Position numbers and translations under genes: made by a program
The notes under the pieces: model-generated
Databases searched by the model: none
What the model was told of the DNA's origin: nothing
What the model saw: only the letters and a program-made list of their open reading frames with translations
Shown: positions 3,501 through 63,858 of the stretch, one piece after another
Numbering within the stretch: the stretch's first letter is position 1
Layout: each line of letters starts with the position of its first letter
NCBI RefSeq assembly: GCF_032854445.1
Contig: NC_088300.1
Location: 47,280,984-47,344,983 of the forward strand
DNA from: Liolophura sinensis
Lineage: Eukaryota > Mollusca > Polyplacophora > Chitonida > Chitonidae
Reading direction: 5' to 3'
DNA length: 64,000 nt

Positions 3501-6500
3501 CTTACCCATATTAGTAACCTTGCAGTCATATCTCTCTATCACTGATTTAATGGTAGTCGAGCACAGCCATTTTGCCAAGTTTAGATAAGAATATCAATCC
3601 TGTCTCTCATGTCTGCTGATAGATCTACTTGACTTAAAATTTTACTCGGACCGGACTAACACCAGGCAGGTAAACATATTTTGCTCCCAGATCAATCCAC
3701 AAAATATTTATTTAGTGCGTAAAATAGCGACACTGTTGACAACGAAAGACAACGGATAGCGACATGTACTTGAATGTGTAGGCCTATGTCCTACACATTC
3801 AAATATGTTTCCATGTTTTAAAATTTGTTAAATCTGAGGTGACCAAAAACCAGGAATCTCCATTTCAGCTGCAGATGTTTTGAACTAGGCCGCAGATCAA
3901 ACCTTCTGCAATGGCCGTGCATTCTACTGTACATTACACTGAGGAATTAACTGAGGAATTGTAAATGTTAGTAGGTCTATGGTACCAACAGTTGTTTTAT
4001 CTGTTGGATTGAGAGCTTTACTCTTTTTGGCCCTGCTAAAGAATACTACACTTCTACAGCTGCTGCCAGCATTATGGTGGAAGGAAACCGGGCAGAGCTA
4101 AGGTGAAGGCCACAACCATCTGCATGTTCTTGCAGTCGTCCACACGTATGCCTGCACTAATAGTTCAAGTGGTGGAAGAAAAAGAATTATTCTGATGTGT
4201 CTAATTTCTGGAAGCATATATAAATGGTTGATCACTTGGGCTTTCATTGCCAATATCCACGGTGAAAACTTTTTTTCCTGACATGTAGGCTACTGCCATG
4301 GCGATAATAAGGATAGTTCTTCTAACATTAAAGAGCTAGAGTAAATGTGACGTCACTTTGCTCAGTAATGGCGAGGTATTGAAACCCCGTCAAAATCAAG
4401 TTTCACTAATCTTCTGTTTGGTTGAAAAAAAATCAAAGAACATTTAATGTCATTTTATGATACTTTGAATATAGAAAATAATCAGGTGCTGTTTTATACT
4501 TAAAGTTTTACTTAGAAAATATGCAGAATTTTGAAGGTTAATGTAAAGCTCTCTTTTATGTCATTCCGTTTTTTTTATGACCTAAAATTATGTTGCTTGA
4601 TCTACTCAAAGTATCTGAAGTATGAAGTCTAAAGTCAGTAAAGTGTTTATATATTCAAGTGTGTGGAAATTTTGATTCAAACAATGTAATTATTGGAGAG
4701 TTGACTTGGTAATGATGGTGTTCATCATTTTCATCTTGTAGGATAAAAATACCAAAGTATAAACTACACACTTGATTTTACCCGATTTGAATTTTGATTC
4801 GTTTTGGTTGGGATCATTGCCCTACCTCCAGATCTATTAGAATTTGTCTTTCTCTCTGCTGGAATGAAATATACAATGTCAGCACCTTCAGTTTCATCCG
4901 TCGGGAGTCGAAGTTTTTTTGGTGACGGGCAGTCATCAAAAAATTTGGAGTCCTGTAATGAAACAGTTAAGGCCTTTTGGTTTGGTCAAAGGCTTACAGA
5001 CCCTCTGGATAGAATACTGCCAAAATATTACTGTTTAAAAGATTGTTGGAGCTGGAATAAAGATACCTGTGCTATTTTCTCAGCCATGCAGATTTCCATT
5101 TCTGCTTGTTTCCAGGATGGCAGCATCAGATTCTGGACAGTGGATGGTAAACAGTTGCTATGCATCCCAAGACCTGATGAACAACCACCTGGTGGAGGAG
5201 ATGATGAGAAGGAGAAGATAACTCCAGCTATTAAGTGTTTATGTTACTCTCCAGCTGAGCATTGTCTTCTTGTGGCTTATGATAGGTACAATTCTTTATT
5301 ATTTGTATCAACTTTTAAAAATAAAATTCCACTTTTTGAACAGACCGTCAAATTCTGCTTTTTGAACAGACCGAAACTTCAGAGCATTTATTTTCGTATG
5401 CATTGTTAAATTACGAGGTCTTCACTGGCTGTGAGAGTTAAATCACTGACTCACTGCACACATCAGGCCCTTAATCATTGAGGTCGCGTGTTCAAACCCA
5501 GCTTTTGATTCTTCAGCTGCATTTTTAGTCCTGGTAAATGGCAGTATAGAATGTATTTCCTCAATGATTAACCTCCTTTCAAAGCCATTTGATGCCGTGA
5601 CATATATAACACTCGAAAAACTTATGTTAAATTTACTTATGCTGTGCTGAAACATTTTGGGAGATATTCTCTTTGAATGATCACACTTTTGATTGATTGT
5701 AGTTGAATTTTTTTTGGCTGAATAGGTATTTGTCCAGCCTAGTTGTCAGTTGTGTTGCTATTGCATTTCATTGCAAAGTTTACCCAGCTCTCATTGTTTG
5801 TGTAGCCTTGGTTACAATAAGAGATTGCTGCTCATGTGGATATTTGCGCAGTTTTAAGTTCAATAATTGATGTGTATGGCCCACTTTTACAAAACTTCAT
5901 GAGTCATATTTCTTGTAACTTTTTTCGTAAAAGATGTCTAGGTTATAGTGCCGTAAGTGCGATGTCATTCACGAGAAAAATTACGAAATTAAGTTTTGTG
6001 AAATTCACCTATATCTGCATATCCCATGACGGAAAGTTCTGGTTTCTTTTACCCAGAACACTTATGGCCACTGTGTGAGTGAAAAGTTCTGGTTTCCTTT
6101 ACCCAGAACACTTATGGCCACTGTGTAAGTGTAAAGTTCTGGTTTCCTTTACCCAGAACACTTATGGCCACTGTGTAAGTGTAAAGTTCTGGTTTCCTTT
6201 ACCCAGAACACTTATGGCCACTGTGTAAGTGTAAAGTTCTGGTTTCCTTTACCCAGAACACTTATGGCACCTGTGTGAGTGAAAAGTTCTGGTTTCCTTT
6301 ACCCAGAACACTTATGGCCACTGTGTAAGTTAAAAGTTCTTGAGTATATATCTTTAAAGTAGTTCTTGTTGTTTTCACCCACAGTTTACCATGCCTGCGG
6401 ATTTACTCACTGTCCTCATCTACAACGAAGGGGGATGTCTTCCTCTTCGCTGACCTCAAACAGGAAGTGACCTTAATGCATTCCCCCTGGGATATCTGCT

Positions 6501-19961: not shown

Positions 19962-20022
19962 TGCAGGCGCGTACTCGGGTTCATCATTTCTTCTCAGCTT
20001 CATCTGATAAGAAGATTACAAG

Positions 20023-20610
20023 ATGTCCCAACCAGGTTCAAGAACAGCTAGTCCACCTCGGTCAGCCCCTAGGTCTGCACCAAAGGCAGCACCACTGAAG
20101 AAGAAGCGTGCTCCAAGACCACCACCAACCCATCCACCCTACGTTGAAATGGTCCGCGGTGCTATTGCTAGTTTGAAGGAGCGCGGAGGCTCATCTCGTC
20201 AAAAGATTCTGGCATACATTACCGCCAATTACGATGTGGGGAAGGAGACTGGTCCAATCAACGCTCGTCTGAGGAACGCCCTGAGATCTGGCGTAGAGAA
20301 AGGCTTCCTGTTACACAGCAAGAAAGGCACTGGAGCCACCGGATCATTCCGCGTTGGAAAGGCTATACCAAAGAAGAAAGGTAAGGCTTCACCACGCAAA
20401 AGAGGCAAGTCTCCAAGAAAGAAGAGGACCGCAAAGAAGAAGTCTCCCCGCAAATCCGCCAAGAGGACAACAAAGAAAGCCCGCAGGTCACCAAAGAAAA
20501 AGGCTGCGAAGAGGAGGACTGGCAAGAAAGCGGCCAAGAGAAGGTCACCAAAGAAGAAGGCTAGGCCAGCAGCACGTCGCCCCAAGGCTAAGGGAAAGGC
20601 CCGCCGTTGA
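20023..20610 (+). CDS. Linker histone H1 (sperm-/PL-I-like tail), intronless
   Basis: 195 residues in one exon; the context ATTACAAGATGTCC makes the first ATG a good start. Residues 1-34 are a Ser/Pro/Ala/Lys-rich tail. Residues 35-113 are the H15 winged-helix domain (YVEMVRGAIASLKERGGSSR, ARLRNALRSGVEKGFLLHSK, GTGATGSFRVGK) that binds the nucleosome dyad. Residues 114-195 are a Lys/Arg tail with five SP(R/K)K minor-groove motifs (SPRKRG, SPRKKR, SPRKSA, SPKKKA twice). Such motifs are typical of sperm H1 and of molluscan protamine-like PL-I proteins, but somatic H1s carry some as well. No core histone gene is within reach, so it is an orphan. H1 box, TATA-like box, stem-loop and downstream element are all present, so S-phase-type expression is likely. 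The antisense ORF over the gene is a shadow. Confidence 0.95.
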   Translation: MSQPGSRTASPPRSAPRSAPKAAPLKKKRAPRPPPTHPPYVEMVRGAIASLKERGGSSRQKILAYITANYDVGKETGPINARLRNALRSGVEKGFLLHSKKGTGATGSFRVGKAIPKKKGKASPRKRGKSPRKKRTAKKKSPRKSAKRTTKKARRSPKKKAAKRRTGKKAAKRRSPKKKARPAARRPKAKGKARR

Positions 20611-24952: not shown

Positions 24953-31827
<6,875 letters not shown>

Positions 31828-32404: not shown

Positions 32405-34475
32405 ATGTCCGTCCTGTTTAATGTCAAGAGATTGTCAGTTACCTGGTCAATCCTCTTTAACGTCAAGAGATTGTAAGCTACCTGGCCAGTCCTGTTTAAC
32501 GTCAGGAGATTGTCAGTTACCTGGTCAATCCTCTTTAACGTCAAGAGATTGTAAGCTACCTGGCCAGTCCTGTTTAACGTCATTAGATTGTCAGTTACCT
32601 GGTCAATCCTCTTTAACGTCAAGAGATTGTCAGTTACCTGGCCAGTCCTGTTTAATGTCAGGAGATTGTCAGTTACCTGGCCAGTCCTGTTTAATGTCAG
32701 GAGATTGTCAGTTACGTGGCCAGTCCTGTTTAACGTCAAGAGATTGTCAGTTACCTGGCCAGTCCTGTTTAACGTCAGGAGATTGTCAGTTACCTGGCCA
32801 GTCCTGTTTAATGTCAGGAGATTGACAGTTACCTGGCCAGTCCTGTTTAATGTCCGGAGATTGTCAGTTACCTGGCCAGTCCTGTTTAACGTCAGGAGAT
32901 TGTCAGTTACATGGCCAGTCCTGTTTAATGTCAGGAGATTGTCAGTTACATGGCCAGTCCTGTTTAATGTCCGGAGATTGTCAGTTACCTGGCCAGTCCT
33001 GTTTAACGTCAAGAGATTGTCAGTTACATGGCCAGTCCTGTTTAATGTCAGGAGATTGTCAGTTACCTGGCCAGTCCTGTTTAATGTCAGGAGATTGAAA
33101 GTTACCTGGCCAGTCCTGTTTAACGTCAAGAGATTGTCAGTTACCTGGCCAGTCCAGTTTAACGTCAGGAGATTGTAAGCTACCTGGCCAGTCCTGTTTA
33201 ACGTCAAGAGATTGTCAGTTACCTGGTCAATCCTCTTTAACGTCAAGAGATTGTAAGCTACCTGGCCAGTCCTGTTTAACGTCAGGAGATTGTCAGTTAC
33301 CTGGCCAGTCCTGTTTAATGTCAGGAGATTGTCAGTTACATGGCCAGTCCTGTTTAATGTCAGGAGATTGTTAGTTACCTGGCCAGTCCTGTTTAACGTC
33401 AAGAGATTGTCAGTTACCTGGCCAGTCCTGTTTAATGTCAGGAGATTGTCAGTTACCGGACCAGTCCTGTTTAATGTCAGGAGATTGTCAGTTACCTGGT
33501 CAGTCCTGTTTAATGTCCGGAGATTGTCAGTTACCTGGCCAGTCCTGTTTAACGTCAGGAGATTGTCAGTTACATGGCCAGTCCTGTTTAATGTCAGGAG
33601 ATTGTCAGTTACCTGGCCAGTCCTGTTTAACGTCAGGAGATTGAAAGTTACCTGGTCAGTCCTGTTTAATGTCAAGAGATTGTCAGTTACCTGGCCAGTC
33701 CTGTTTAATGTCAGGAGATTGTCAGTTACCTGGCCAGTCCTGTTTAATGTCAGGAGATTGAAAGTTACCTGGCCAGTCCTGTTTAATGTCAAGAGATTGT
33801 CAGTTACCTGGCCAGTCCAGTTTAACGTCAGGAGATTGTAAGCTACCTGGCCAGTCCTGTTTAACGTCAAGAGATTGTCAGTTACCTGGTCAATCCTCTT
33901 TAACGTCAAGAGATTGTAAGCTACCTGGCCAGTCCTGTTTAATGTCAGGAGATTGTCAGTTACCTGGCCAGTCCTGTTTAATGTCAGGAGATTGTCAGTT
34001 ACATGGCCAGTCCTGTTTAATGTCAGGAGATTGTCAGTTACGTGGCCAGTCCTGTTTAACGTCAAGAGATTGTCAGTTACCTGGCCAGTCCTGTTTAATG
34101 TCAAGAGATTGTCAGTTACCGGACCAGTACTGTTTAATGTCAGGAGATTGTCAGTTACCTGGCCAGTCCTGTTTAATGTCCGGAGATTGTCAGTTACCTG
34201 GCCAGTCCTGTTTAACGTCAGGAGATTGTCAGTTACATGGCCAGTCCTGTTTAATGTCAGGAGATTGTCAGTTACCTGGCCAGTCCTGTTTAATGTCAGG
34301 AGATTGAAAGTTACCTGGTCAGTCCTGTTTAACGTCAAGAGATTGTCAGTTACCTGGCCAGTCCTGTTTAACGTCAGGAGATTGTCAGTTACATGGCCAG
34401 TGCTGTTTAATGTCAGGAGATTGTCAGTTACATGGCTAGTCGTGCTTAATGTCAGAAAATTGCCAGTTACACGGC
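32405..34475. repeat. 39-bp minisatellite, about 53 copies
   Basis: Each unit contains GGAGATTGTCAGTTACCTGG and CCAGTCCTGTTTAA(T/C)GTCA. The unit is 13 codons long, so frames stay open. On the minus strand 32401-34338 is open for 645 codons (repeat NLLTLNRTGQVTD). On the plus strand shorter runs read LSVTWPVLFNVRR and CQLPGQSCLMSGD. The last few units (34400-34560) decay gradually. No promoter, splice site or non-repeat coding flank supports expression, so I call it satellite DNA. Confidence 0.95.
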
Positions 34476-34559
34476 AAGCCCTGTTAACATCAGGAGAACT
34501 GTCAGGTGCACGGCGAGTTCACGTTTTAGCGTGAGAAAATTGTCAGTTACCGGGTGAGT

Positions 34560-39900: not shown

Positions 39901-42900
39901 GTTTACTTTAACGGCTGAAGGGTCTATTGCAAGACTTTCTACAAACATGCTGAACAGCTAGGGACACAAACTTGAGATATATCTGAACAAACATAACTAA
40001 ACTTGTTACATGCATTTAAGCTCACAAGGTCCACCCTTACCTGAGATGTACCGTTACCATGTTACATAGAATTCCAGACACATACATGAGATATGTTTGA
40101 ACAAGCACATCGGCAAAAGTTACGTATACCGTTGACAGTTGCAGACACTTACTTGAGAAGTGTAAGTTGTAAAAGTTGGCCTGCTGATTTTATCAACTGA
40201 TGAGCCTGCATATGTGTCAAGTTTTGTGCGTTTGAGTTTCCGATTCCCAGAATAATGTCGCCGGCGCCGACACGTCCGTCAGCGGGACTTCCGGGTGCTA
40301 CCTGTAAAACAGACGAGTAATTGATTTAGGTATTTATTTTACGACTGACAGGGAGTCGTTGGGTCAAATAATTGATTGATTATTGGCTGTTTTTCGATTC
40401 GATCGATCTTTTGAGAAAAACTGATTAATCAATTGACTGAGTGATTGAATGATTCTGCATATAGCGGAAGCTCTTTGCTATTTACCTCTAGATCTGAGGC
40501 AAACAATGTCATCTCTTGTTTATTTAACCACTGCTTCACATTGTATTTTAGATTACATGTATTTCACTTGGAAGATAGATGTTTACACATGGAGGAAAAT
40601 GAAAGTAACCGGACAGTAATAATTGTTTAACAGTGCTGTGTACACTGACAATACAATATTATATAAAAAAAGCAAATTAAACATGTATAAATTGACGAAA
40701 TTATTAAGAATTTTGTTGTTAAGATTAATTTCACGTTCTAAAAGCTCTTAAATAAAAGTAAAAGAAGGTCAAGTGTTCGTGACAATCAACTCACTGAGAT
40801 AATATCAGTACAAGTATAAGTTATTAAGCATGTATCGCTTTAAAATACATAGTTTAAACATTGCATACATTAACGTTCACATTATCTGTCATCGCGCTGT
40901 CTAAAAAGGAGCGTAATATATAGGTTGTCAAAATTAACAGCAATTAGTCTCATAGCATTATCAATATTAATACAAGTCGTTCATCATAAATAGATTTAAA
41001 GTGTGCGGGCAAACAATCCCACCTCGCCACCGTATCTTGTCCCCGGGGTTAAGCACTTTTCGACTTGCAGGGTAAACAGGGATCTCGGAAAATGTTTGTG
41101 ATCTTTGATTAGTTTATTTTACAGAAACAACTGACATATCAATGAATATGACAATGTTTTGTTTAAATATCACGAAGCCCTTGTATCGCCATTGGCTTAC
41201 GTCAGACTTATTTGTCTTATTTGACAAATACTCCCAAAATGCCTATCAGACCTACCAAATTAACATAGCCTGCTGTCATCACCAATGAATGTTTACTGTT
41301 TTATAACAAATCCAGTCTGAGCTGAATAACATTGTTTCCGTAGCCTAAATTAGACACGTATTTGTTAAGCTGGTGCTCTAAGCTATGATATACAGAAATC
41401 CAGGTAGGGCTACAAAAGTATTCATCCTTCCTGCTGAATCATTCACCATGTTGGCAGAAAAACAAGTGAGACGCCCATACCCTGCAGGCAGGACATACGT
41501 TTATACCGCTTTTACTCTGACTGTAAGCTAGAGGCAAAACACAAACATATGCTATGTGAATTCCGTCGTAATTTTGTACTCCAAATAATTTCTTAGTTCG
41601 TTGATAGTTTGTGTTAAACGTCGTTTTGGGAATTGGCCTGGCCATTGTTGACTAGGAGCCTCCATTTTGATTGACGACCGGTATACGAATGTCTGTTCCT
41701 CACCGCCTCATCACAGGCAATCAATGACAATTATAAAAATTTGGTAGATACTAAACAATTAACCAACTAAATAGACAACAAGTAAGAAAAAGAAAACAAG
41801 GACATTAAAATGTTTTTTTTTTGCAATAATATTCTTGACATGACATATATACCTTCCTTTAGGCAACTGATCTACAGGTTAAGGGCACGTCTTTGGACAG
41901 CAGCCAAAGAAATGTTCTCAAGGAACAACTAGACGTAGCCGCCCACAACGTTCACGAAGTATGTTACCAGGGATACATAGCACATCAAGAACATTGAACC
42001 CGTATCCCCACTCTTGGGAGTGATAAACGGTCAAGCTGAACCCCGATTTATTTCTATCGTCACTGAGGAAGAGGAATCCTCTACAGCTTTGTCTTAAGAA
42101 TTTTATCATTGTCCACAATGATAACGAAATGAATCTGTGCTATCATGCAGACAGTGGACTTATTGTTCAGTATATATAACTCCAGCATGGCATTTAAAAA
42201 CAATGAAATAATTTTTAATCAAATATTTTAATAGTCTTTTATTAAAAGTGTTTTAATAAGGAAATTTGTTTGCACTGTTTCAAGGATTTTGCACATTCCA
42301 TTCGGTTTAAGTACAACGTCAATAGGCCTACCATGTGGCAACAGTCATGGTGTATGTGAATAATTAGTTTGAAACTTTCATGTTAACGATCGGATGAACT
42401 GGCTTTGTGTATGACAGTCATATGCGTGTATGTAGCGATGTAGTAATTCCAGGTGTGGTATCGTTTGCAGTTTACCTCCATGTGTTATCCTAATAGTAAA
42501 CCCATTTGACCTCTGGCCCGGAAGTGAAGACGAGGTGGAATGCTCCAGTCTCGGTGTCACGTTACCTATAGACTAATTTGGACTAGCGAATGGACGGGGT
42601 GTGCAAACTGCAAGCAGATCGCAGGGCGCTGACCTGAGGGGAAATATGCAGGTCGATTAGGCATATAGAGAGGGAAATACGGCACATCCAGGAATTGTAA
42701 ACAAGACTTCTAAAACAGGATGCCAGATTCTTTGGAACATACGTCCTCGTGCTGTTGTTGTTTTTGTCGGCAGTGCTTTACCGAATTGGGCTGTTATCAT
42801 CATGTGACTCAGGACAGAGCTATGGTTGTTTTCTTTGTAGACTTGAACAGTTAAAATCATTTCTTATTATCGAGATACCACCCGCTTTCCCTTCAGGAGA

Positions 42901-45799
42901 TATCTAATATATATTTTACTTTATTAGAAATGATGAGCAATATTTGAGGAATGGCGGCTAATACAAAATTGCTGAATGTAGACTGATCTTGCACGAGTGT
43001 TTATAGGCTCACAGCCTTACAAGGTACAATAAACTCCGAGCGCCGTCTTCATAACGCTGGGAAAGTTATTGGTTGAAAGCTTCGTTAAGTTTACCTTAAA
43101 AACTTTCGGGTTATATTAGAATGCAGACCTAGTTTTTCGTTCCTTGAAACGGCAGAATAAATCTTCTTCATGGAGTAATACTGACAACGATATATTTAAT
43201 AACCAGTGAGTTAAGTTGCAGAATAACATTACTTTTGAGCTAATACATGGATTGGATGGTGCTTTTTAAGCCATTTCTTAAGAGTCACATTCACATTCGA
43301 TGTATGAACAGTTGCAGGACAAAGTGCAGCTGAGATACAATATTTCCTATTAACGACAAATTAACGTTGTACATTATTTGGATACTGTTTAACTTACGCA
43401 ACCTAGAGCGTATTCCTCCTTGCAAGACTCCAAATTTCTTACAAAATGTACTTTCTTAATTGTCATTTGATTTGTGTTGAGAGTTGTTTTGCACATTCGT
43501 CTCAGGTACTCATTGACCCGTAACGCCCTTTATAGTTGACAGTTGGCATATGATTTATGCCTATTATGATGGCTACATTTACATCATGGAGCAACGACAT
43601 GTATATCACCAATCATTTCTAAATACAAACAGAAGTGTAGAATGGCATTTTGAAGATGAGTTGGATAACATAACATATATATCACAACTTCTAATTATTT
43701 CTTCTTCTAATTACTGAGCGACATTTCGGTATAGGCTCTAATACCGTTATAGGTACTAAGTCCGTTATCAAGCATGGTAATAATGGTATGGTTGATAACG
43801 CCGTTGATTATGCTTGATAACTGTATTAGTACATATAGACCCAATCGTCGCTCATTGAATGAATGGAGTTGTGATCCATGTACATGTATTTGCTACGTTA
43901 CCGGTGTAGAAATGCCTTAGTGGTTTGTATTCCCAGAATTGGAACTGACCCATGTCTTATGTACACTGACTACAACCATGCAATTATACTGACTGGATAC
44001 ACCGTTTACACGTTCTCCCCAGGGGTTAGTGCTTCGAGTATCTCTCACGGTGGGGATTCTGCAAGTGTCAGGAGATAAGAGAGACGTGGCCAGTGGTGAA
44101 AACCAGTACGTTTGTATATATACAAATCTGTCAGAGGGGTCAGAAATGTTATTATCTAACTTTAGAAGGGTGTGAACAGTGTCAAGCCGTACAGAGCAAT
44201 CCGGTCACCGGGAATGGAAGATACACTTATACCTACACTGTAAAAAGTAAGGTTCGAGTCAGCAAAAAGTTAGTGGATTTGGACTGCAATAATGTGGCGT
44301 TCGCTGATCGTTTTCATCGCTTACTGAAGTCAGTTTTAAGGTTTGATAGGTCATATTTCAGGAGGCTGTATTTCACTTGTTATACGTGCGTGTGACAAAC
44401 GTCATTGGACTGCAATAATGTGGCGTTCGCTGATCGTTTTCATCGCTTACTGAAGTCAGTTTTAAGGTTTGATAGGTCATATTTCAGGAGGCTGTATTTC
44501 ACTTGTTATACGTGCGTGTGACCATCGTCAACCATGACCCTGTTCTGATTTTACTCTCTTTGTAATATATATATATAAGGACATCAGTTTTGAGAGGTAC
44601 ATGTAGGATTGTTCCAATACATTTTGGAGAAATAGACAACAAAGAATCCGGTACGAGAAAATAGGTACGTAAGGACCTCTGAAAGCAGATAAAGCATTCT
44701 TCCCACGTCACTTAGGCCACGTCGGATTTTACCATTTTCAGTATAACCACCGTTAAAACAGTTGGCCAAGTTCTTCAATATTTGTTCAGTCGTATTTAAA
44801 GCACAACATTCTAAAATGAACTTTGGTCCATTCGGTTTACGAACTGGATGTTTAAATAACTTTTTAGCGTGTATACCATAACCATGTATGCCTATATACT
44901 TCTGCTTATCTGAATTTCTTCAGAACGTTAGATCTCACAGACGACCCAGCTGCTTGAGACTGACATTTAGAAAGAGCATCTGTTTTACTGATAAACACCA
45001 GTGAAATGTCGTGAGTGAAACCCAAGTGCGCATGCGTGCGTGGGTCTAACCTACTTTTCAGACAAACACGCTGATGTCAGCAACATATGCCCACACACGC
45101 TTATAGTGGTTTCAGATTGTGGTGGTGATTCTATTGCATAATAAGCATTTATCTATTTATGTATTTATTTTTTTTACAGTAATACCAATGGGAACATGTC
45201 CTATTTACACGCTTCGTAAAGCCGTTTTTGTCACAGGATTCACACACCACAAAATTTATTTCCATTGCCACTTGTTCATTGCAGCAGATTTGTTTTCTGT
45301 ATTTATATCCACATACTTTACCGGTTTATAGTTTAAGATAATAAACTGTACAAATTTAAGATTTTTGTTTTGAAACAAACAGAATAAAAGTTTGCATGAT
45401 GCATTTTTATATGATTCGCTCGGTTTTCACTATTTGTTTGTCTTGTTACACGCATCAATAAAAAGATGGTATTCAGAATTTCTGTTTATGTAAAAGGCTC
45501 TTGCTTTCCCTACAAGCCATTGACCAGTGAGACCACAATCTCGAATGCAGTTTGGCTGCAGCCTTAAATCAGAAGGTATAGAGGAAGAGCGGTGGTTTAC
45601 ACCGGCCACCCATGCAGGTATGAACTTGATCGCTGTCATTAAACTTAGGGTTTTTTTAATGTGCCGAATAAAATGTATAGGCCAAAATACTTAAATAAAG
45701 GTAAAGCAAATTAAATTAAATATACTGCGTAATAATTCTAGTGAAAGTAATTTATTCCTTTATTTATGTATGTATGTATGTATGTATGTATGTATGTAT

Positions 45800-51659: not shown

Positions 51660-51905
51660 AAGCACCACCCAGGACTTCATGCTCCCAGAAAAGCTCTTGC
51701 GATCTCTTTCAGGATCATCTCATGAGGTATCTAACTTTCACTCCGGTTCTTTTATATTCCTCCAAAAATCACGTGACGAACTGATCAGCACCACCCGTGA
51801 ATTCATGCCCCAAGATAGTTCTTTGGGTCACTTTGAGGGTCACCTGATGAGGTATCTAGCTTTTACTCCTGTCCTTTTATACAATCACGTGATGAAATCA
51901 ACCAA
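51660..51905 (-). repeat. Two decayed copies of the sulfatase last-exon end, after the stop codon
   Basis: Reading on the minus strand, AGCTAGATACCTCATCAGGT..CCTCAAAGTGACCC (about 51860-51790) and GTTAGATACCTCATGAGATG (about 51735-51680) repeat the exon's GCCAGATACCCTCCGGACGA..CCTCAAAGTGACCC. Each copy is about 115-125 bases, ends in GGTGGTGCTGAT or GGTGGTGCTTGAT like the genuine GGTTGGTGCTGAT, and is separated by TCACGTGAT spacers. Both have lost the frame. Confidence 0.85.
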
Positions 51906-54900
51906 TCAGCACCAACCGGGACTCCAAGCTCCCCCAAAGTTCTTGGGGTCACTTTGAGGATCGTCCGGAGGGTATCTGGCTTTCACACCTGTCTTCTTAT
52001 ACTCCTCCAGCCTCGCTATCATTTGCCCAAGAATCGCAGTTTCTGTGGGAGCAAGGTCATAACGCTCCTCAGGGTCATCTGGCAACATATAAAAACAACA
52101 TAACTGGCTAAATGTTATGACATACGTATCTCATCAGCCATCAGGCAGTTTATTTCAAAATGAGAAACAGTTTCAAGTATGAACGTCTGGGGCATGGAAA
52201 GAGATGAAAAGAGTGGCGACTCCTTCGTGTTAGCACTTGGTGGCAAGTGTAGGCGAAACTATATGCACAAGTGAGATATCGAAGTTCAAAATCAGCCAAA
52301 GCGCATACACTGAGATAATCGAAATATTTTAACTAATCAGGGGCCAGTTATTTCTATAACCCGATGACGGTGTTGTTTCCGCTTACGTCACCAGGAGCCT
52401 ATCTTGCCTTTTAGCCATTCGTGTCCACGAGTAACGCTACATCGTGTTTCCAGGTTTGGGCACCCCATGGCCACGTAAGAATTTCTAATTAAAAGTTAAT
52501 TTATAAGATGACCAAGAACGTCAGAAAAAATGACTCAAACCATTTAGGCCTGTTTCCACCCATCTTCCTAAATATATTATTTGTTATCTTTTCTTGTAAT
52601 GAACGCTTTGGGCCGTGCTTAATACACAACTAGACTCACAGTAAGTATGGTCATAAACCTGACCTAGACTGGAGTAGCTATAGCTACACAAATGTCATAG
52701 GATCGATAATGTGAGTGACCAGTTGGTTCAGGTAGCCATGGCTACACAAATGTCATAGGATCGATAATGTGGGTGACCAGCTGGTTCAGGTAGCTATAGC
52801 TACACAAATGTCATAGGATCGATAATGTGGGTGACCAGTTGGCTATAACCCTGCCTCTAATACTGTAGAGCCGATAAAGTTGGTGATCAGTTGGTTCAGG
52901 CAGCTATAGCCCTACCTCTAATATTATAGAGCCCATACTGTGGGTGATCAGTTGGTTCAGGTAGCTATAGCCCTACGTCTAATATTATAGAGCCGATACT
53001 GTTGGCGATCAGTTGGTTCAGGCAGCTATAGCCCTACCTCTAATATTATAGAGCCCATGCTGTGGGTGATCAGTTGGTTCAGGTAGCTATAGCCCTACGT
53101 CTAATATTATAGAGCCGATACTGTTGGCGATCAGTTGGTTCAGGCAGCTATAGCCCTGCCTCTAATATTATAGAGCTGTTGGTGATCAGTTGGTTCATGT
53201 AGATACATAGCCCTACGTCTAATATTATAGACCCGATTCTGTGGGCGATCAGTTCGTTCAGGTAGCTATAGCGCTACCTCTAATATTATAGAGCCGATAT
53301 TGTAGCTGATCAGTTGGTTCAGGTAGCTATAGCCCTATCTCCAATATTGTAGAGCCGCTACTGTTGGTGATAGTTGGTTCAGACAGTCTCTCGGGTAGAT
53401 ATAATCCTACCTCTAATGTTATGGTAACTTTAGCCCTACCTCTAATATTATAGAGCCCATACCGTTGGTGATAAAGTTGGTTCAGGTAACTATAGCCCTA
53501 CGTCTAATATTATAGAGCCGATACTGTGGGTGATCAGTTGGTTCAGGTAGCTATAACCGTGCCTCTAATATTATAGAGTCCATACTGTGGCTGATCAGTT
53601 AGTTCACGTAGCTATAGCCCTGCCTCTAATATTATAGAGTCGATACTGTGGCTGATCAGTTAGTTCAGGTAGCTGTGGCTCTACCTAGAGCCGATATTGT
53701 AGCTGATCATTTGTTTCAGGTAGCTATAGCCCTACCTTTAATATTATAGAGTCGATACTGTGGTTGATCAGTTGGTTCAGGTAGCTCCTCGGGTAGGGGG
53801 ATGCTCCGTGTGTCCTCTCCCGGAAGGGGATACCAGTCGTTGTATTTGCCAGCTTGTCCTTCTATCAGCTTGTAATCGTCTTGTCTGAAAACCAGATTTG
53901 GTCTGCTTTGTTAATCGGATTTGCATTTGCATTTAACGCCTTCCACCTTTCTTACCCAAGGTACCTTTCCTGCGATAACTTTTTGTGAGCAATCTGGCAA
54001 CGAAGGTAGAGATCGATATCAATGAAAACAAAAAGCTTATAGGATTGTGCTCTCAATGGTTTTTTTATTTGTCAACAAAATCTAGAGCACACATCGTTTT
54101 GAATAATATGAACTGGAAAAAAAACAACTGCCAATCGCAATGCAAATTTACCTTGTATTCTCAGTATCTTTGTCATCTGTAACTTCTTCAACGTAAAAAT
54201 TCTCTTATTCACAATAAAGACGATTTAACTTTGCACCTGACTACAATAGGGGAATCCAGTTCGAAGGCTTATCTTGTTGAAGACAAAAACAGTCCCATAT
54301 GTGACCTGGCAAAAATGCTAGGCAACTTTTGTCGACATTAATTTACCGATCACCTGTCTCTGGAGGCAAAAATGACACCACTTACCTGCAGGAATTTCTT
54401 AACGTCATACACGCTCACAGCCTCGTTTTTTTCCCTTCGTTGTCTGCTCTAAATAGCTTTTTGTGAAACTTCAGAGGCCCATGTTATAGTAAATGTAATA
54501 AAAATAGTTGCCTAACATTTCTGACAGGTCACATGGCACATTATAACTTTTTCACCTTCAGCGATAAAAGACTTCGAACTCGAAACTCCCCTATTGTGCT
54601 CAGATGATGTTTCGGCAATCATATCATAAAGACTACAGGGCATCCACACAATATTCATCCCTGACTCTGATCCGTTACTGACCTGAGAGCGGCATTTTTA
54701 TATATGTCATCGATGTTGTATAGGAACTCTGTCCTCGGTGGAGGTTCACCCTCACTGAGCATGCGCCAAACGCTCATACCGTCAATGCCCGGATCTGACA
54801 ACACAAAGGTCATAGAGGATTGGCTGTTTCATTTATTGAAAATGGTTCACACACTTACAGCCATTTACACCAAACCAAACAATTTGTCGCAGAATTTAAC

Positions 54901-57900
54901 TGTGTCGACCTTTTCACCAAAGATAAAGAGGTGACAATATAGAGAAAGCTATATTCTATGAGCTTTATGTTATTTACCTGGTTTCCCGCCAGCGACTTCA
55001 AGAATTGTTGGAAACCAATCTACGGCATGCATTAACCTGCAACAGACCTTACTTTTATCATACTGTGTAAAAGTAAATTAGAAAGGAGCAGCTTCCATTC
55101 AACACCCGTCACAACAACATATTCCATGGCCAATGTTGAACCACATACCCTTTGACGACCATGCAAGTGTTGTGTAAATACAGACATATGAAAAGTCTAC
55201 TGCGATCTTAGTCTTCAATTACAGAGTACCGATGAATCAAATATGGCCTTGGAAAGAGTTCCAGATCCTTTTAATTGTAAAAAAAAGGGAAATGTAGGAC
55301 ATGTGGAGTGAACATTCCTTCTCGCAAGATCGACACAAGCAAATTTGCTCAATCTTTGGATTCCTGGAGCCCATTGTGTGAAGAAACCTATCTTTATGAC
55401 AAAAGGAATATTTTCAACTTTAACATTGGTAATTATCCTTATACTTGGATAACAATATATCCCGAGAGGTGCTGCACATTGCCTGCGCATGTCTCGCCTT
55501 GCAGGATTTGTTACAGCTTGTGTGATCTGGGGCAATTTTAGTTATTATTGCAAAAACTAGTGTGTCAAGGTAATCCAATCAAAACCTTCACCCTAAACTT
55601 CTTAAACATTACAAAAGGTACAGTTCTCTTGTAAGTAAATATGGACAAAGTGTTCAGAAGCCTCGGCACTCTGCATCACATCTGTATCTAATTCCGCATT
55701 ATCCCAAACTATATGGTTGTATATGCATTGTGCTGAATACCATGGCCAAATTGGACATACGATCAGCTGCGATCAAAGTGCAACCGAGATACATATTCTG
55801 ATTTTAAAACTTTTAAAATGGCGTTGTACACGATTTGGATACTGATTAAATTTCCAGGAGCATTCCTTATACGTATTTCCTGCATATCTTGGTTGTTCTT
55901 TTAGAAATTTAATTAATTTATTTATTTAATTGGTGTTTTACGTCGTACTCAAGAATATTTTACTTATACGACGGCGACCAGCATTATGGTGAGAGGAAAC
56001 CGGACAGAGCCAGGGGGGAAACCCTTGACCACTTTTTTGAAATTTGGTCCTGCGCTTATTGACCTGGAACTTCCATTATATGACTGACGATTGGCAGTTA
56101 AATGTTTGTTTCAACCTGTAGATTTATCCATGAGTCATTAAACAACATGAGCCTAACTTTTCAAGCCTTAAACTGAATCCTCACCCATTGCTGGTGTAGC
56201 CTGTTTTCTTCAGTAGCGTTCTGCTATAAACGAAAGCTGCACCTCTGGTACCCCCTTCCCATAGGGTCGTCTTAGCACCTCTTAGGGGTAAATTGTTAGC
56301 CGCAAACCAGACGGGACCGCCATTCTGTCACAAAGATTCAAGTGACGTGGTAAGTCAAAAATGCAGGACTGCATGATGTAATAATAATGTAAATGATTTA
56401 AACATTCATATTAGTTTGCTGTGTTTAAATGCAGAATGCAGATATAAAATGCTTCCACCATTGGAAATGGTGGGCCACTTTTGCTACATCTTATTGTATC
56501 CTGTGATTTCGAGATCAATACTCGCCTGGTGACGTGGGGTTCCTATCCGTGTAATGTCGACTCGAATCCAAATTAAATGGACAAAACTGTTCCATAGCCA
56601 TGCATTCATGGGTATAATGCAATGTGTAGCACCAGACTGCTCACAAAGAGTCATCGCGAAATAAACAACAGATTACACTAGAGACCCGAATTATACTTTA
56701 CTTGGGAAAGGCTCACAATTACGGTCTGCATCGATTATCAGGGCATTCACAGGTGTGACCGCGCGTTCGAATCCAGCTAATGCTGTTTTATCTGAACGTT
56801 TGCTAGGTCTGTTGGTTTACCCAATTTTGGTGCTAAATATTCAATCAGTGTTATCAAATCTATGACTTAACATATCAAGAAAAGTCCATGACACATCTCA
56901 GTTCTGTTGAAATGACTGGTCGGCCATCTTTTGGACTCGTGTTGAAATTATAGGTTACGTCACTCTAGCGTGAGAAAATACGTCAAAGTCATTCAATGCA
57001 TAGGTATAGCTCACGTCGGTGGTAAAGATGATTAAAGTGTTATCCATATAGCCATTGTCATCTAAGGCCCGTGTGATGTTTCCTATAGCTTCGTCCAACG
57101 CTGTTATCATGCCTGTGAAAAGCCACCAGAGCAGGGGAGGTAAAAATGCCACGTTATTGACTAGAATAGACATATTCAGTGATCTCCCTTTTGATCTTTA
57201 TTGAATACGTGCATAACAGGATAGAGGCTGTTCAGAGTTAGCTCAAATAGTGCAACGAAAACCGCATTAATACTACATGATGTCTCTTGATAAATACAAA
57301 GTTATAGGGAAACACTGGATGAAAAAAGAAGAACATATAACCCTAGATTAGAAGAAATCTATATGTTGGCATTTTCAGGCCACATAGTAAAAGCAAATGT
57401 CTCTTTATAATCACCGAGTTAATTTTCCTTTAATAAGCCGCCATACTTACCACACTTTTTGCGTCTTGTGATATTCTTTATATTTGGATACATATCTTCG
57501 AATCTTTTCGGAACCTACAGTGAATAATTCAGGTATTTGGTCGACTGCAAAAATGCTATTCCTATAGTTTAAAGGAGAAGAAAATTTAAATATCAATCAA
57601 ATACCATTGAAAGGAGTATGTATTTCTTCGCAGGTGCATCCTATAAAAAATTTTTAATATGTACCTCAAGTTGATAAATTATAAATGAAGTCCAAAATCC
57701 GCTGTGGGCAACTCCATTTTGCCTAAGAACTAGTGCTGAAGTCTTCTGTGTTAGGGGGAGAATTGCTGTCGGAAACCGCTGAAGTGCAGTTCGTACATAT
57801 GCGGTAGAGCTCTTCTTCCCAGAAGGTAGAGAACAGTACAGTTTGTTTTCAGCTTGACGATCGGGAAACCGGAATGTTGGACATAGGTTCCGAGTTTAAA

Positions 57901-60900
57901 CGAACAAGCCGGCAATTTTAACAACTCTCATTGGCTGAGAGGCAACAGCATAAATTACAGTGTGTTAAATATGGAGGATACGATGGACAGCGATTTATGC
58001 CAGCTTTGCCCTTTTCAGGCTTTACGTGTATGGCGAGGAAAAATGGCAAAATTATGCAGCAGGCACCACCATATAGAAAAAAATGTGCTCTTTTTAGCCT
58101 ATGGTGTCATGTTTTTAAGATTTCTTCTCCTTTAACATGTAGGCTGCGTATTTCACCATCTCACTGACCTTCCAAATACCGGTTTTTTTTACTACTTAAT
58201 TAACAGGAGTTTATTATATCCTAAGAAATATTCCACACAGTTTATACTGATATATTCCAGTTGAACAATACAAGTGTTAAATTTCTATAACCCTGTAATT
58301 AAAGACAAATCGCATGTGTATTTCTGTGTCATAAGCTACAACAAACAAAAACAAAACGGCATCCGCCAGAAAGCACTCTCCAAACACTTTGTACAACAAC
58401 AAACATTTTACTATATCTGAACTCACCATAATAGGAGCGTGGACTGACTGGAATGGTAAATATACAAATAACGGTTTGGACTTGTCGTGGGTTTGAAGTA
58501 TGTCTTCTGTTCTCCGCACAAAAATATACTGGAACAGAACATGTTATCATACATGTACGAAAGCCATATTCCATATAAGAATCCATTTTTTCGTATTTTC
58601 TTTTGTAGTTGGGTTATATAGACATTGGTTAGCCTGGTGATTTACCGAAAACAAGTTTCGAGTAAATAATTTACAAGTTTTGTGAAGGTGGACTCCATAT
58701 ATATAGTAAGACGTATACGAATTGAAACGAAAAGAAAATACCTGTTTCTTTGTGAAAGAAATAATTAGGAAACAGCACACACTATCTACAGGACAAGAAA
58801 ATGTAGATTACAAAAACTTTGTAACATTCAGTAAAGGCTTTTGTGGTGTAAGAGGCATTCGTTTCATATTCTATTCCTACTATTGTATAACCCTGTGTGG
58901 CTACCCACGATAATATAGCTGCGTTAATCACAACGGCTGAAGAATGAGAAATTTACAGTGAGTATACATCTAGCAAATGATGAAATACTGATACATTCAT
59001 ATGCTTAAAGTATCAGTGTATTTAAAGTTTTTTGGAACTTACCGGTGAGTAGGTTCCATTGTCTGAAAAGTTAGGTTTGGTGTCCATTCGGAAATCCAAT
59101 CCGCTATAATTTTTGTAATCTGAATATTAAAAAGACCAAGAAAAGACAGATCTATATGACAATAAGTCCCATCGCACGTGCATTTCAAAAACGATCAAGC
59201 TGCAGATGAACGCAATCTCCAACAACAACAGCAACAATTAACGCTTACAATATACAAGTATATAACTTATGCATTTACCTAAGTTTGTTACACCACAAAA
59301 ACATCGGCACGAAATTCGTCCACGGCGGTCAAAATTGTTTTCATTAGGCTCTATCGACCTCAGTCAAAGTATATATTAGACTAGTGTATATATTATCAAA
59401 AAATGATTAAATCATAATCCCTTTTCTTCATTTTTCCCTTTAGGTTTATTTTTGAATAATTATTGGTTTACCCTTTTTCTGAAAAATACCCGCTAAATTT
59501 CATCCTTTGTTTAATGAGTGAATCTGAAAACACCAATCACTAAAACTGCAATTAAATTTGAAACCAAACATGATCGCGAAATATGGTCATAAGCCAATCT
59601 TTCACTCAAACAATCCATCAGTCCACGTTAACAGACCTCTTACGTGAGTGTTGTAATTTTCCATGCTGGTGTAGTAACCCAGGAAGCTGTCAAAGCCGCG
59701 GTAAGTCGGTGTATAGTTCCAGTTACAGAAGCCCAGATGCCACCTGAAAGAAAGTTCAGTTAATTATAAAAATGTGATCTGTTCGAAACCCAAAACAGAT
59801 TTTACAGAATAGTTGGTATATACATATTTCTGTATTACCATTCAAAATGAAAAAATCTAAAATAAGAAATATTTCTATATATAATTTTAACTATATAGTT
59901 AGATAACAATTTAGTAGGTAAAATGATGATAACTGTAAAAGTTATCATAAATTATGATAATGATTAATTTGCAAATAAACTCTAATGTCATCAACAAAAT
60001 GACCGCAAAGTCAAGGTTATTTGGTTTCAGTTGATGCCTGTGGGGAGTGATTAATTTGGTGTTTTACCAAAATGCCCTTATAAATGTAACGTAAATCTAA
60101 ATCCACTTATTTCAAATACCTTACTTTAGTGAAGCGATACTAAAACTTTCGCGAGGAGGTGGACAAATATAATTTTTTCGGTGAGAGATGGGCTTAACTA
60201 GTTTCACCACCGAATCTGTTTTCTGTGAGAGAGAATGTACCCTGTAAGTTACTTAGAAGATGACGCCTGGCTGTGAAGATTATATTTTTCGGAACTGATT
60301 GCAAATCATGTGAATTAAGTCATAGACTTGGACAAGATAAATCTATATTTTTCTGACAGCATATTTGGTTCAAAGACATATATACAGATAGTGTAAATAC
60401 TGACACCAAATGATTCAGCCAGAACTCGAAGCTACTTGCCATAGCTCATACACGATGCAGAAACCAACACAGATACACAGAAGAGTTTCAGAAAGGGAGT
60501 GAATGTATAGCTAAATTAAGCATTGTCAGTGTGAAGATTTCCAGAAAGAAGCAATAAAAGAATTCTCTGCGATAGGGCCGAGGTACTCAAATACACATGT
60601 ATGTGAATAAAATGTCACAGCATATATACACAGCCATATAATCGAAGGGAATACTTGAGATGCGTTAATTAAGACGCGATTCGTATGTTTGTTACCATCG
60701 CAACACCTGAGTTGTAAAAGAATTGGACATCCGCGCAAAAAACATGATGGAAATAAAACCTACGGAACAGAAAACACAAAACACAGACGAAAGAGAATAA
60801 CCTGGGTTTCAGTAAGTGAGGAACGTAAACTCACTTCAGAATATAGACTCACTGTCAACACAAAGTATCGCTTTTCGCCATTCTGAGACGTGTGCAATCG

Positions 60901-63858
60901 GTCAGAAACTCTCATATCGTTACCATGCCAACAAGCATGGCGAAAGTATCTCATATATCTGAGTAATGACACACAATAAGTTCGTACATCTTTCCATCAG
61001 ACAATTCTTCTGAGCCAATGACTATCTCACGGGATTCATCCACAGGTTGCCTGAAGACCTTCTCATGTACAACCGGAGAGGAAACCAGCAATTTTTAAAA
61101 AAAAATTTTATGAAACGCTAAAGCACTTCCCGCTGCTCATTGTAATCTTGAACTGAATCGACACTACAATATATGCACTAAATGTTAAGAGTTAATCTGT
61201 CCGAGTTATTTATATGGATTACAGAATACCCAGACTTATCAGCCCAGAAATATAACTTACTTGCCAACGATATGTGTAGCGTAACCCACATCTTTGAGTT
61301 TCTGGGGTAGCAATGTCACATTCAGTGGTAACCCAGTGGGTTGTGAAGCCAGAATCACATAATGCTGTTAAAATAAAAAGAAGTTAAGAGGTTGTGCATT
61401 GTGTTGTCGACAAACAGGTCAGTCAGTGGGTTATAATCCTTGTCGCATATATGCAAACAGGATTACTACTCTGCAAAACAGTGGCAACCCAAAGGATTAT
61501 GGAGCCGGATTTACAAAGCGCTGTCAAAAGAATGCTAACCCTGTGGGTTTTGTTTCCAGAGTCACAGTACCGTCAAAACAGAGGGAGGTCAATGAGATAT
61601 GCAGCCAGAATGACGTCAGTGGGTTGTGAAGCCGGAGTTACATAGCGCTGTCAAACTTGTGGGAAGTCAGTGGGTTGTGAAGCCGGAGTTACATAGCGCT
61701 GTCAAACTTGTGGGAAGTCATTGGATTGTGAAGCTAGAGTAACATAGCGCTGTCAAACCTGTGAGTGGGTTGTGAAGCTGGAATTGCATAGCGCTGTCAT
61801 GCCTGTGGAAAGTCAGTGGGTTGTGAAGCCTGAGTTACGTTGTGCTGTCAAAACAGAGGGAAGTCTGAATGACAAAACGGTGTACAAATGGATGGAAGAC
61901 AGTGGGTTGTGCAACCATAACCGCATAGTACCGTAAAAAGAGGCAAGAAAGTACGTTATGCAGACAAAATGCCTCAATTTGTTAAAAAAAAGCAAGGTTT
62001 TAGTGAAATCTGCGACAAGGATGACAAAACCTTTTAAAAACAGGTGCAGGTCAATGGGTTGTCCAGTCAGAATGACCAAATGCAGTAACAATATGGGCAA
62101 GTCAATGGGTTGTGCAGTCAGAATGACCAAATGCAGTAACAAAGCAGGCAAGTCAATGGGTTGTGCGGTCAGAATGACCAAATGTAGTAACAAAACAGGC
62201 AAGTCAATGGGTTGTGCGGTCAGAATGATCAAATGTAGTAACAAAACAGGCAAGTCAATGGGTTGTGCGGTCAGAATGACCAAATGTAGTAACAAAATAG
62301 GCAAGTCAATGGGTTGTGCAGTCAGAATGACCAAATGCTTAAACATGTGCAAGTCTATGACACACATGCCTCAAGTACAGAGACAACCTATTCGATTGTA
62401 TAAAAGCCAAAACATAATACTCGAAAAACAAGCATTGTTAGTACAGCCTCCAAAACACAAGGCTGCGCATAAAACAAAGGTCACACAGTCACATCGTACT
62501 GATCAGTACCTGGCCTATTCGCTCCTGCTGGGTGCCAAGCTAGGCAGTATCAGGATTTTGAAGGCGTGTAGAGTTTGACTCAATTTGACTGCTTACCAGA
62601 CAAACGCCTTTAAATGTAGTTTTAAACTATGGAAGAGTGAGTGAGTGCTTGAGGTGTAACGTCGTACTGACAATTTTTCAGTCATATGACGACGAAGGAA
62701 TCCTTAGAGTACATGTAATGTGCTCCCTTCTTGCAGGACGGATTTCCACCGCTCTTTTATCTAGTGCTGCTTCACTGGGACGCCTTACCGAAAGCAAGTA
62801 AGCCGTTCCGCCCGAACAATTTTGCTGATACGGGCCAACCAGTCGTTGCACTATCCCGTTCATGCTAAAAGCCAAGCGAGGAAGTTACAACTTCCTCTTT
62901 TAAGGTCTCAGGTGTGACTCAACCCCAGAAATGACCCTGGATCTACCGCCCTCGAACACAACATTTTCGTCGGTCTGTCGAAATTGAATTTGCATAGCAA
63001 AATAAAAAAATAAAAATCTTGGAGTCGTGTTGCGCACCTATCAGTTTGAAAGCAGAAATGCAGACAACCATCCCGATCTAACTTTCAATGTAGTATTCTA
63101 GCTTTTTTACATCCATTAAAAATACAGTTGAAGAGAGAAATCGCAATGTTTCGATGTAAAATTATATGTTTATGTTGTGCTTCTTTTCATGATTGAAATG
63201 GAAAAAAAGGTCGACAAGGGGCAAGACATAACATTTAATTTGAAAAAACGTCGTCTTTGGGTATAACAGTTTTGTGTTTGACCGAGACTTAGTGTTTTGT
63301 TTGTGTTTTTACAAGTTTAGTTCCAGACTCGCTCACGATGTAAGCAATTGCGATACAGATAGTAATCTGCTACTTTTTCAACCACTTAAACACTTTTTAA
63401 CTGGAATTTATGAATTGTTATGAAAATGACGCTAGAAACGATTTATTTGTGTCACTTAACATTTATTTATTTGATAGGTGTTTTACGCCGTACTCAAGAA
63501 TATTTCACTTATACGAAGGCGGCCAGTATTATGTTGGGAGGAAACCGGGCAGAGCCCGGTGGAAATCCACGACCATCCGCAGGTTTGTCACTAACACGTA
63601 AGCTTTATAAAACTGTGCAGATTATATCCCTACATCCATAGTTCTCTCAGAATGTGTCAGAATATTGGTTACTGAGGCGGGTGAAAATCTTGAAGGACTA
63701 GGGTACGTGTATGTTACAATGTAGGCTGATACTTGTCAGTTAATACCATGTATTTATCTATCCTTCATGGAACAAAACAATGAATGAGTTTTAAGGCTTA
63801 TGTTACCTGTAAACCTGTGTGGTAAGGATAGTATCCACTCATGAAGGAATTCCTGGAT
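51906..63858 (-). CDS. Arylsulfatase B-like sulfatase (N-terminus beyond right edge)
   Basis: Twelve exons, in gene order: 63858-63807, 61364-61261, 59743-59637, 59119-59043, 58528-58427, 57514-57451, 57112-57015, 56324-56185, 55036-54978, 54794-54683, 53884-53736, 52078-51906 (TGA). They join in frame to 411 residues. Seen: [17 protein letters not shown] right after the missing C-x-P of the formylglycine site, [52 protein letters not shown] (the Asp-Asn metal site split by an intron), [18 protein letters not shown] with the active-site Lys, and DPEERYDL. This is the ARSB/ARSI/ARSJ group, which hydrolyses sulfate esters of glycosaminoglycans in lysosomes or outside the cell. All visible catalytic residues are kept. 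Human ARSB has 533 residues; about 85 N-terminal residues with signal peptide and Cys should lie past 64000. The substrate cannot be inferred. Confidence 0.93.
52665..53735 (-). repeat. 61-bp minisatellite made from the 3' edge of sulfatase exon 11
   Basis: About 17 units. On the minus strand each reads GCTACCTGAACCAACTGATC, then CACAGTATCGGCTCTATAAT, then ATTA..GTAGGGCTATA. This equals the last 50 nt of exon 11 (encoding [17 protein letters not shown]) plus the first 11 nt of the intron with its donor. The far units (52680-52840) form a diverged subtype containing ATGTCATAGGATCGATAATG in plus orientation. Confidence 0.93.
54476..54600. mobile_element. Half copy of the MITE found at 28703
   Basis: CCATGTTATAGTAAATGTAA and GTTGCCTAACATTT, down to GAACTCGAAACTCCCCTATT, are the reverse complement of 28806-28703 with scattered differences. 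It lies in a sulfatase intron; the second arm is absent. Confidence 0.65.
55905..56032 (-). repeat. SINE 3' fragment, reverse orientation
   Basis: TTTATTTAATTGGTGTTTTA, CGTCGTACTCAAGAATATTT and TACGACGGCGACCAGCATTA, then AGGAAACCGGACAGAGCCAG; the head is missing. In a sulfatase intron. Confidence 0.85.
56735..56795 (+). repeat. tRNA-like SINE relic
   Basis: GTGTGACCGCGCGTTCGAATCCAGC holds a good B box, but the preceding A-box region does not fold as a tRNA. Confidence 0.35.
61020..61095 (-). repeat. Short SINE body fragment
   Basis: GGGATTCATCCACAGGTTGC and CTGAAGACCTTCTCATGTAC, then CCGGAGAGGAAACCAGC, match the middle of the reverse-oriented SINE copies. Confidence 0.65.
61365..62352 (-). 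repeat. 51-bp minisatellite made from the 5' edge of sulfatase exon 2
   Basis: About 19 units of varying decay between exon 2 and exon 1. Two units at 61621 and 61672 are almost identical, and six at 62051, 62102, 62153, 62204, 62255 and 62306 are exactly 51 bases apart. On the minus strand, proximal units read TTTGACAG|CGCTATGTAA..GGCTTCACAACCCACTGAC, which mirrors the exon's AACAG|CATTATGTGATTCTG and GGCTTCACAACCCACTGGG, acceptor included. Distal units encode [17 protein letters not shown] against the exon's [14 protein letters not shown]. Confidence 0.92.
62633..62880 (+). repeat. Interspersed repeat family B, copy 2
   Basis: Begins GTGAGTGAGTGCTTGAGGTG and shares CAGTCATATGACGACGAAGG, ACGGATTTCCACCGCTCTTT and GATACGGGCCAACCAGTCGT with 14787-15070. 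It continues past the point where copy 1 turns into poly(A), through CCAAGCGAGGAAGTTACAAC. Confidence 0.85.
63461..63590 (-). repeat. SINE 3' fragment, reverse orientation
   Basis: TTTGATAGGTGTTTTACGCC, GTACTCAAGAATATTTCACT, TACGAAGGCGGCCAGTATTA and GGAAACCGGGCAGAGCCC; the tRNA-like head is absent. Confidence 0.88.

Follow-up and report, generated by a model that had tools for sequence, protein, structure and literature searches.

The 64,000-nucleotide stretch analysed here, hereafter the window (C6:47280984-47344983), belongs to a chiton genome assembly of 609,464,459 bases in 632 contigs, which was first named Liolophura japonica and whose name was later corrected to L. sinensis (PMC12441733). 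On its minus strand lies an ARSB-like sulfatase gene, for which our own splice assembly gave 11 coding exons, e2 to e12, lying between 61364 and 51906; for e3 and e8, the ends were set manually to preserve the frame (Table 1). Once joined, these exons form one continuous frame of 394 codons plus a stop codon, whose product matches N-acetylgalactosamine-4-sulfatase (PDB 1fsu, which we take to be ARSB; E=1.5e-85) and the Pfam Sulfatase family (3e-37). More upstream exons were found in the next 10 kb past the right end of the window, referred to as L002. One of them, ending in CSP (L002:1149-1259), is interrupted by a frame break, with one half open in a different frame from the other. This break may reflect a pseudogene, an allele or an assembly error, and because of it the sulfatase gene is perhaps non-functional in this assembly.

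Elsewhere in the window, Pfam identified a linker histone frame (20011-20607) and a 7tm_7 chemosensory receptor frame (24953-26347), both on the plus strand. An array at 32411-34505 repeats a 39-nt unit about 54 times; it stays open for 705 codons on the minus strand, with long plus-strand frames as well, probably as a consequence of a unit length divisible by three. At 44279-44530 there is a 126-nt tandem duplication, whose two copies are 98% alike and which is thus recent; its probable location is intronic, in a PDZ-domain gene defined by a PDZ exon at 40152-40325 (Pfam) and a predicted partner exon. Finally, a 50-nt unit with GTAAGT-like letters is repeated in six copies (6033-6340) within an intron of a WD40-like gene, presumably WDR4, whose match to Pfam WD40 reached only E=0.16. 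This array was considered as a donor-like edge array and rejected, as it shows no exon likeness by eye and ends 46 nt before the acceptor.

In the sulfatase gene, the terminal stretches of each exon, at most 60 nt long, were aligned with the non-coding DNA between 51300 and 62500, left unmasked, and each stretch was compared with 20 shuffles. Three of the 22 edges scored above chance, namely, the acceptor of e2 (score of 29, against a shuffle maximum of 16), the donor of e11 (45 against 16) and the stop end of e12 (33 against 14), while the remaining 19 edges stayed at chance level in this same alignment. The resulting arrays, which sit within introns already required by the gene model or past its stop codon, are included in Table 1.

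Table 1. Exons of the sulfatase gene and the arrays copied from their edges, in positions of the window.
Feature	Positions	Strand	Remarks
Upstream exon	63807..63858	-	Begins within the CSPSR motif and ends HTGLQ; boundaries by eye
Acceptor array, intron upstream of e2	61427..62340	-	14 copies beyond the real edge; TRF/nhmmer
Exon e2	61261..61364	-	Acceptor edge at 61364, source of the acceptor array
Exons e3 to e6	59637-59743, 59043-59119, 58427-58528, 57451-57514	-	No edge copies found
Exons e7 to e10	57015-57112, 56185-56324, 54978-55036, 54683-54794	-	No edge copies found
Span of e3-e10	54683..59743	-	Splice assembly and edge alignment
Exon e11	53736..53884	-	Donor edge at 53736, source of the donor array
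Donor array, intron downstream of e11	52674..53735	-	17 copies beyond the real edge; TRF/nhmmer
Last exon, e12, with stop codon	51906..52078	-	3' end, source of the stop-end copies
Stop-end copies, past the stop codon	51650..51882	-	Two copies beyond the real edge, about 115 nt each; nhmmer

The donor unit, of about 61 nt, comprises some 50 nt of exon and 11 nt of intron, and divergence is greatest in the three units most distant from the exon. The acceptor copies, separated by decayed stretches, fall into two subfamilies: lone copies occur near 61479 and 61533, followed by a group at 61616-61863 and one copy at 61899, and the second subfamily occupies 62047-62340. The two stop-end copies share 77% and 73% identity with the exon unit of e12. 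A fourth array, with units near 37 nt (around L002:237-1148), starts at the donor that follows the CSP-ending exon and sits just beyond the edge of the window. TRF combined with self-comparison gave four array regions in 51656-65976, and all four are edge arrays. Moreover, each array has its own private unit, since the four showed no cross-match with 99 other loci (294 kb), a set from which L001 was omitted because the stop-end array lies in it; and the stop-end stretch occurs once in a search of the genome. Thus, exon-derived arrays at an acceptor, a donor and the stop end of one gene, unrelated to one another, are as the original prediction described them, and its coordinates proved good. 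The chance that three random founders (61, 51 and 126 nt) would all overlap exon edges in this gene is 0.0004-0.003, depending on the settings, a value that is post hoc because the gene was chosen for carrying arrays. Set against the base rate, this gene, which has arrays at 4 of its 27 edges, is only slightly unusual (P from 0.015 to 0.07).

As judged from the alignments, the arrays derive from the exons, and the exons are older than the copies. The alignment with 1fsu starts at the first residue of e2 and also takes in the e11-e12 region, which makes the exons the older part. The reverse order of events, with arrays existing first and exon edges being recruited from them afterwards, has a precedent in human boundary repeats, which can make new introns and exon ends according to the available part of one report (PMC2812944). 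However, such an order is contradicted by this same alignment of the edge residues with a solved sulfatase, and paralogous sulfatase exons encoding the same part of the protein lack these arrays, so that we regard it as highly improbable. It could also be argued that the arrays arose one by one, each when a mobile or retro-copied element inserted; we found no supporting evidence for this in these arrays. Against this, the units preserve contiguous exon and own intron in genomic order, so that spliced RNA is not the source and retro-copies were rejected, and neither spliced nor polyadenylated sequence was found in the copies. The private unit of each array among the loci compared speaks against insertion too, and given the single genomic occurrence of the stop-end stretch, a dispersed element was rejected there. 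Separate insertions are thus a very poor candidate, and the retro-process from partly spliced RNA that had been proposed earlier is left unsupported.

Arrays of this kind do have a name. In amphioxus, minisatellite-like tandem duplications of exon-intron boundaries are called mirages, and the available text of two reports places them in the genes for Adh3, the globins BflGb6 and BflGb9, and troponin C, with similar imperfect repeats in PGBD5 (PMC3087553, PMC3902484). Hence, the earlier claim that no named process matches does not hold. As far as the amphioxus mirages are described there, they resemble the chiton arrays in being tandem, minisatellite-like boundary repeats at acceptors and donors, in extending on the intron side with units of tens to about 160 nt, and in having splice signals in many copies but not in all. 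The amphioxus description further has regular splicing left intact and array length unstable between alleles or cells. For the chiton, the tandem repeats come from TRF and nhmmer (17, 14 and 2 copies); the unit lies across the exon-intron boundary in the e11 donor, e2 acceptor and L002 donor arrays; and, by eye, GT is retained in 9 of the 14 alignable donor copies (GC in four and AT in one) and AG in at least 6 of the 14 acceptor copies. The splice-edge arrays therefore have the mirage features that can be checked on the sequence of one assembly. The chiton arrays differ, when compared with these same parts of the amphioxus reports, in occurring in a mollusc, in several unrelated genes and, in one case, at a stop codon; this stop-end array has no splice site and falls outside the definition as published in those parts. 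The same structure is thus found in another phylum, as the sequence comes from a chiton and mirages from amphioxus, and no report of mirages in any mollusc was found among the matches listed in the literature searched.

Two other systems are related, again as described in the available portions of the sources. In human segmental duplications, minisatellites that can shift splicing are likewise tandem repeats placed on exon-intron boundaries, but they vary inside the coding exons of paralogues of recent origin, and transcripts retain part of them, whereas the chiton copies lie on the non-coding side (PMC2812944). In potato, an intron was gained through a tandem duplication across an intron-exon boundary (PMC4974935); there, one duplication yielded a new intron, whereas the chiton has multi-copy arrays in existing introns and in the 3' flank, and no new intron was seen.

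Edge arrays recur in unrelated genes of the chiton. Genome searches returned 46 sulfatase and 138 kinase matches, and a first look at 30 sulfatase loci revealed six with exon-overlapping duplicates, including two pairs of paralogues. From the 138 kinase rows we sampled 56 exons with 500 nt on either side, 36 of them by a rule set before fetching (match of at most 330 nt, open frame of at most 150 aa) and 20 by a looser rule, which covered part of the remaining qualifying rows; the ends of these exons are the ends of the family matches, the splice sites being putative. Edge arrays occur at 4 of these 56 exons, namely, at the acceptors of L047 and L048 and at the donors of L055 and L062, the array copies in L062 reading GTAAGC against GTATGC at the true donor. 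Outside the focal gene, 9 of 56 sulfatase exons have edge arrays, or seven when the doubtful L033 and L007 are left out, and one exon of L042 has 15 additional tblastn matches to its start upstream in the intron. Two further observations concern array size. A 512-nt intron (L037:2291-2826) is made almost wholly of arrays, one starting at the donor and the other ending 3 nt short of the acceptor; and a 26-nt array of about 281 copies extends over 7.3 kb (L035:1-7357), in or beside a sulfatase gene and 619 nt from the nearest exon found.

We consider it very probable that these arrays are mirages born by tandem duplication across a boundary at the DNA level, subsequently expanded and homogenised, and tolerated because the exon-proximal site is used. 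A founder duplication would span a splice donor, a splice acceptor or a stop codon, leaving one intact edge beside the coding sequence, with the extra copies falling on the non-coding side. Slippage and unequal exchange are motors of array growth, and later expansion and homogenisation may have proceeded through either. Exon-proximal splicing would then act as the filter, with all additional copies treated as part of the intron or the 3' flank; as long as the site adjoining the coding exon is used, the protein would be unchanged and the gene would remain usable, and transcripts using a decoy would be lost. In agreement with this, a decoy past e11 meets an in-frame stop at the seventh codon and one past the L002 donor meets it at once; for e2, all 14 decoy extensions listed hold three or more in-frame stops each; L055 and L062 have an in-frame stop within seven codons of the end of the match; and the frames upstream of L047 and L048 also hold stops. 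Since the use of a decoy soon runs into a stop, selection can keep the arrays as silent passengers. The placement of the copies on the non-coding side, for which a special process had been invoked, is expected from any tandem duplication that crosses a boundary, provided that splicing takes place at the exon-proximal site or translation ends at the first stop, and calls for no extra mechanism.

A separate question is whether boundaries carry more arrays than expected by chance. In our null model, a founder as long as the observed period took a random position around each exon, with wholly exonic founders barred and an edge array defined by an overlap of at least 10 nt. Under this model, 4 of 16 kinase arrays are at an edge, with 0.86 expected (P=0.0075), all four coming from the first 36 exons (4 of 12 arrays) and none from the second batch of 20 (0 of 4). 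For the sulfatases without the focal gene the count is 9 of 24, with 3.13 expected (P=0.0012), some arrays having been scored at two exons, which adds non-edge rows. This count omitted L035, where 619 nt separate one of two exons from the start of the 7.3-kb array, the partial exons of L042 and L043, and the paralogues L016, L022 and L030, of which L022 and L030 have edge arrays and L016 has an array just beside the match. Taken together, both families give 13 of 40, with 3.99 expected (P=1.5e-5), an excess of about threefold. In a strict set, L033 was recounted as non-edge as its exon part does not align, L007 likewise as a single 29-nt duplicate, repeats of one array were removed, and L041 and one L043 array were dropped as paralogous; here, 9 of 35 arrays remain at an edge, with 3.55 expected (P=0.004), and sulfatases alone give 5 of 19 (P=0.11).

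Other measures gave no such signal. Over whole introns without the focal gene, 2 of 10 arrays are at an edge, with 1.5 expected (P=0.44), and in terms of coverage, arrays occupy 6.4% of the kinase flanks and cross 3.6% of the edges. Since arrays extend into the intron and may come to fill it, these two measures are blunt ones, but both results stand. Exon-only 45-mers from L033-L038 gave just 1 clear edge out of 60, in a test that misses arrays whose exon part is short, that at the L037 donor among them; and among 45 array consensus units, strong donor motifs (4, with 1.9 expected) and acceptor-like motifs (6, with 7.6 expected) provided no usable signal. The test proposed earlier, of enrichment over random placement, thus comes out positive for founders, but not for whole introns without the focal gene or for coverage, and we conclude that an excess at chiton boundaries is likely.

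This bears on the idea that boundaries, beyond merely tolerating arrays, also seed them, through a chromatin edge, breakage coupled to transcription or splicing, or local microhomology, which would add to the mirage account favoured above and not replace it. The founder-test excess, found in kinases, in sulfatases, in both jointly and in the strict set, points in this direction, as does the focal gene, where every array found is an edge array. On the other hand, the empty second kinase batch, the strict sulfatases on their own, the whole introns and the kinase coverage all argue against seeding, and no mechanism for it was seen; we would thus rate it as somewhat less probable than its absence. 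The broader proposal, that boundaries are mutational hot spots for array birth in both chiton and amphioxus, linked to gene structure and leaving a few per cent of all boundaries in the chiton genome with decoy splice-site arrays, is speculative and rather unlikely on current data.

The observation that motivated this analysis is confirmed as real, and it was understated. What is known is the structure, named in another phylum; what is new is its recurrence in the chiton, together with a likely excess at boundaries. A structure named in amphioxus is carried over to a mollusc, where it is not rare (4 of the 56 sampled kinase exons). Because array copies resemble exon ends, these arrays are also a warning for gene predictors. 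The chiton genome is suited to asking where new introns and cryptic splice sites originate, and whether tandem duplication favours exon edges. If boundaries did prove to be hot spots, arrays of decoy splice sites would form a permanent reservoir of new introns and isoforms.
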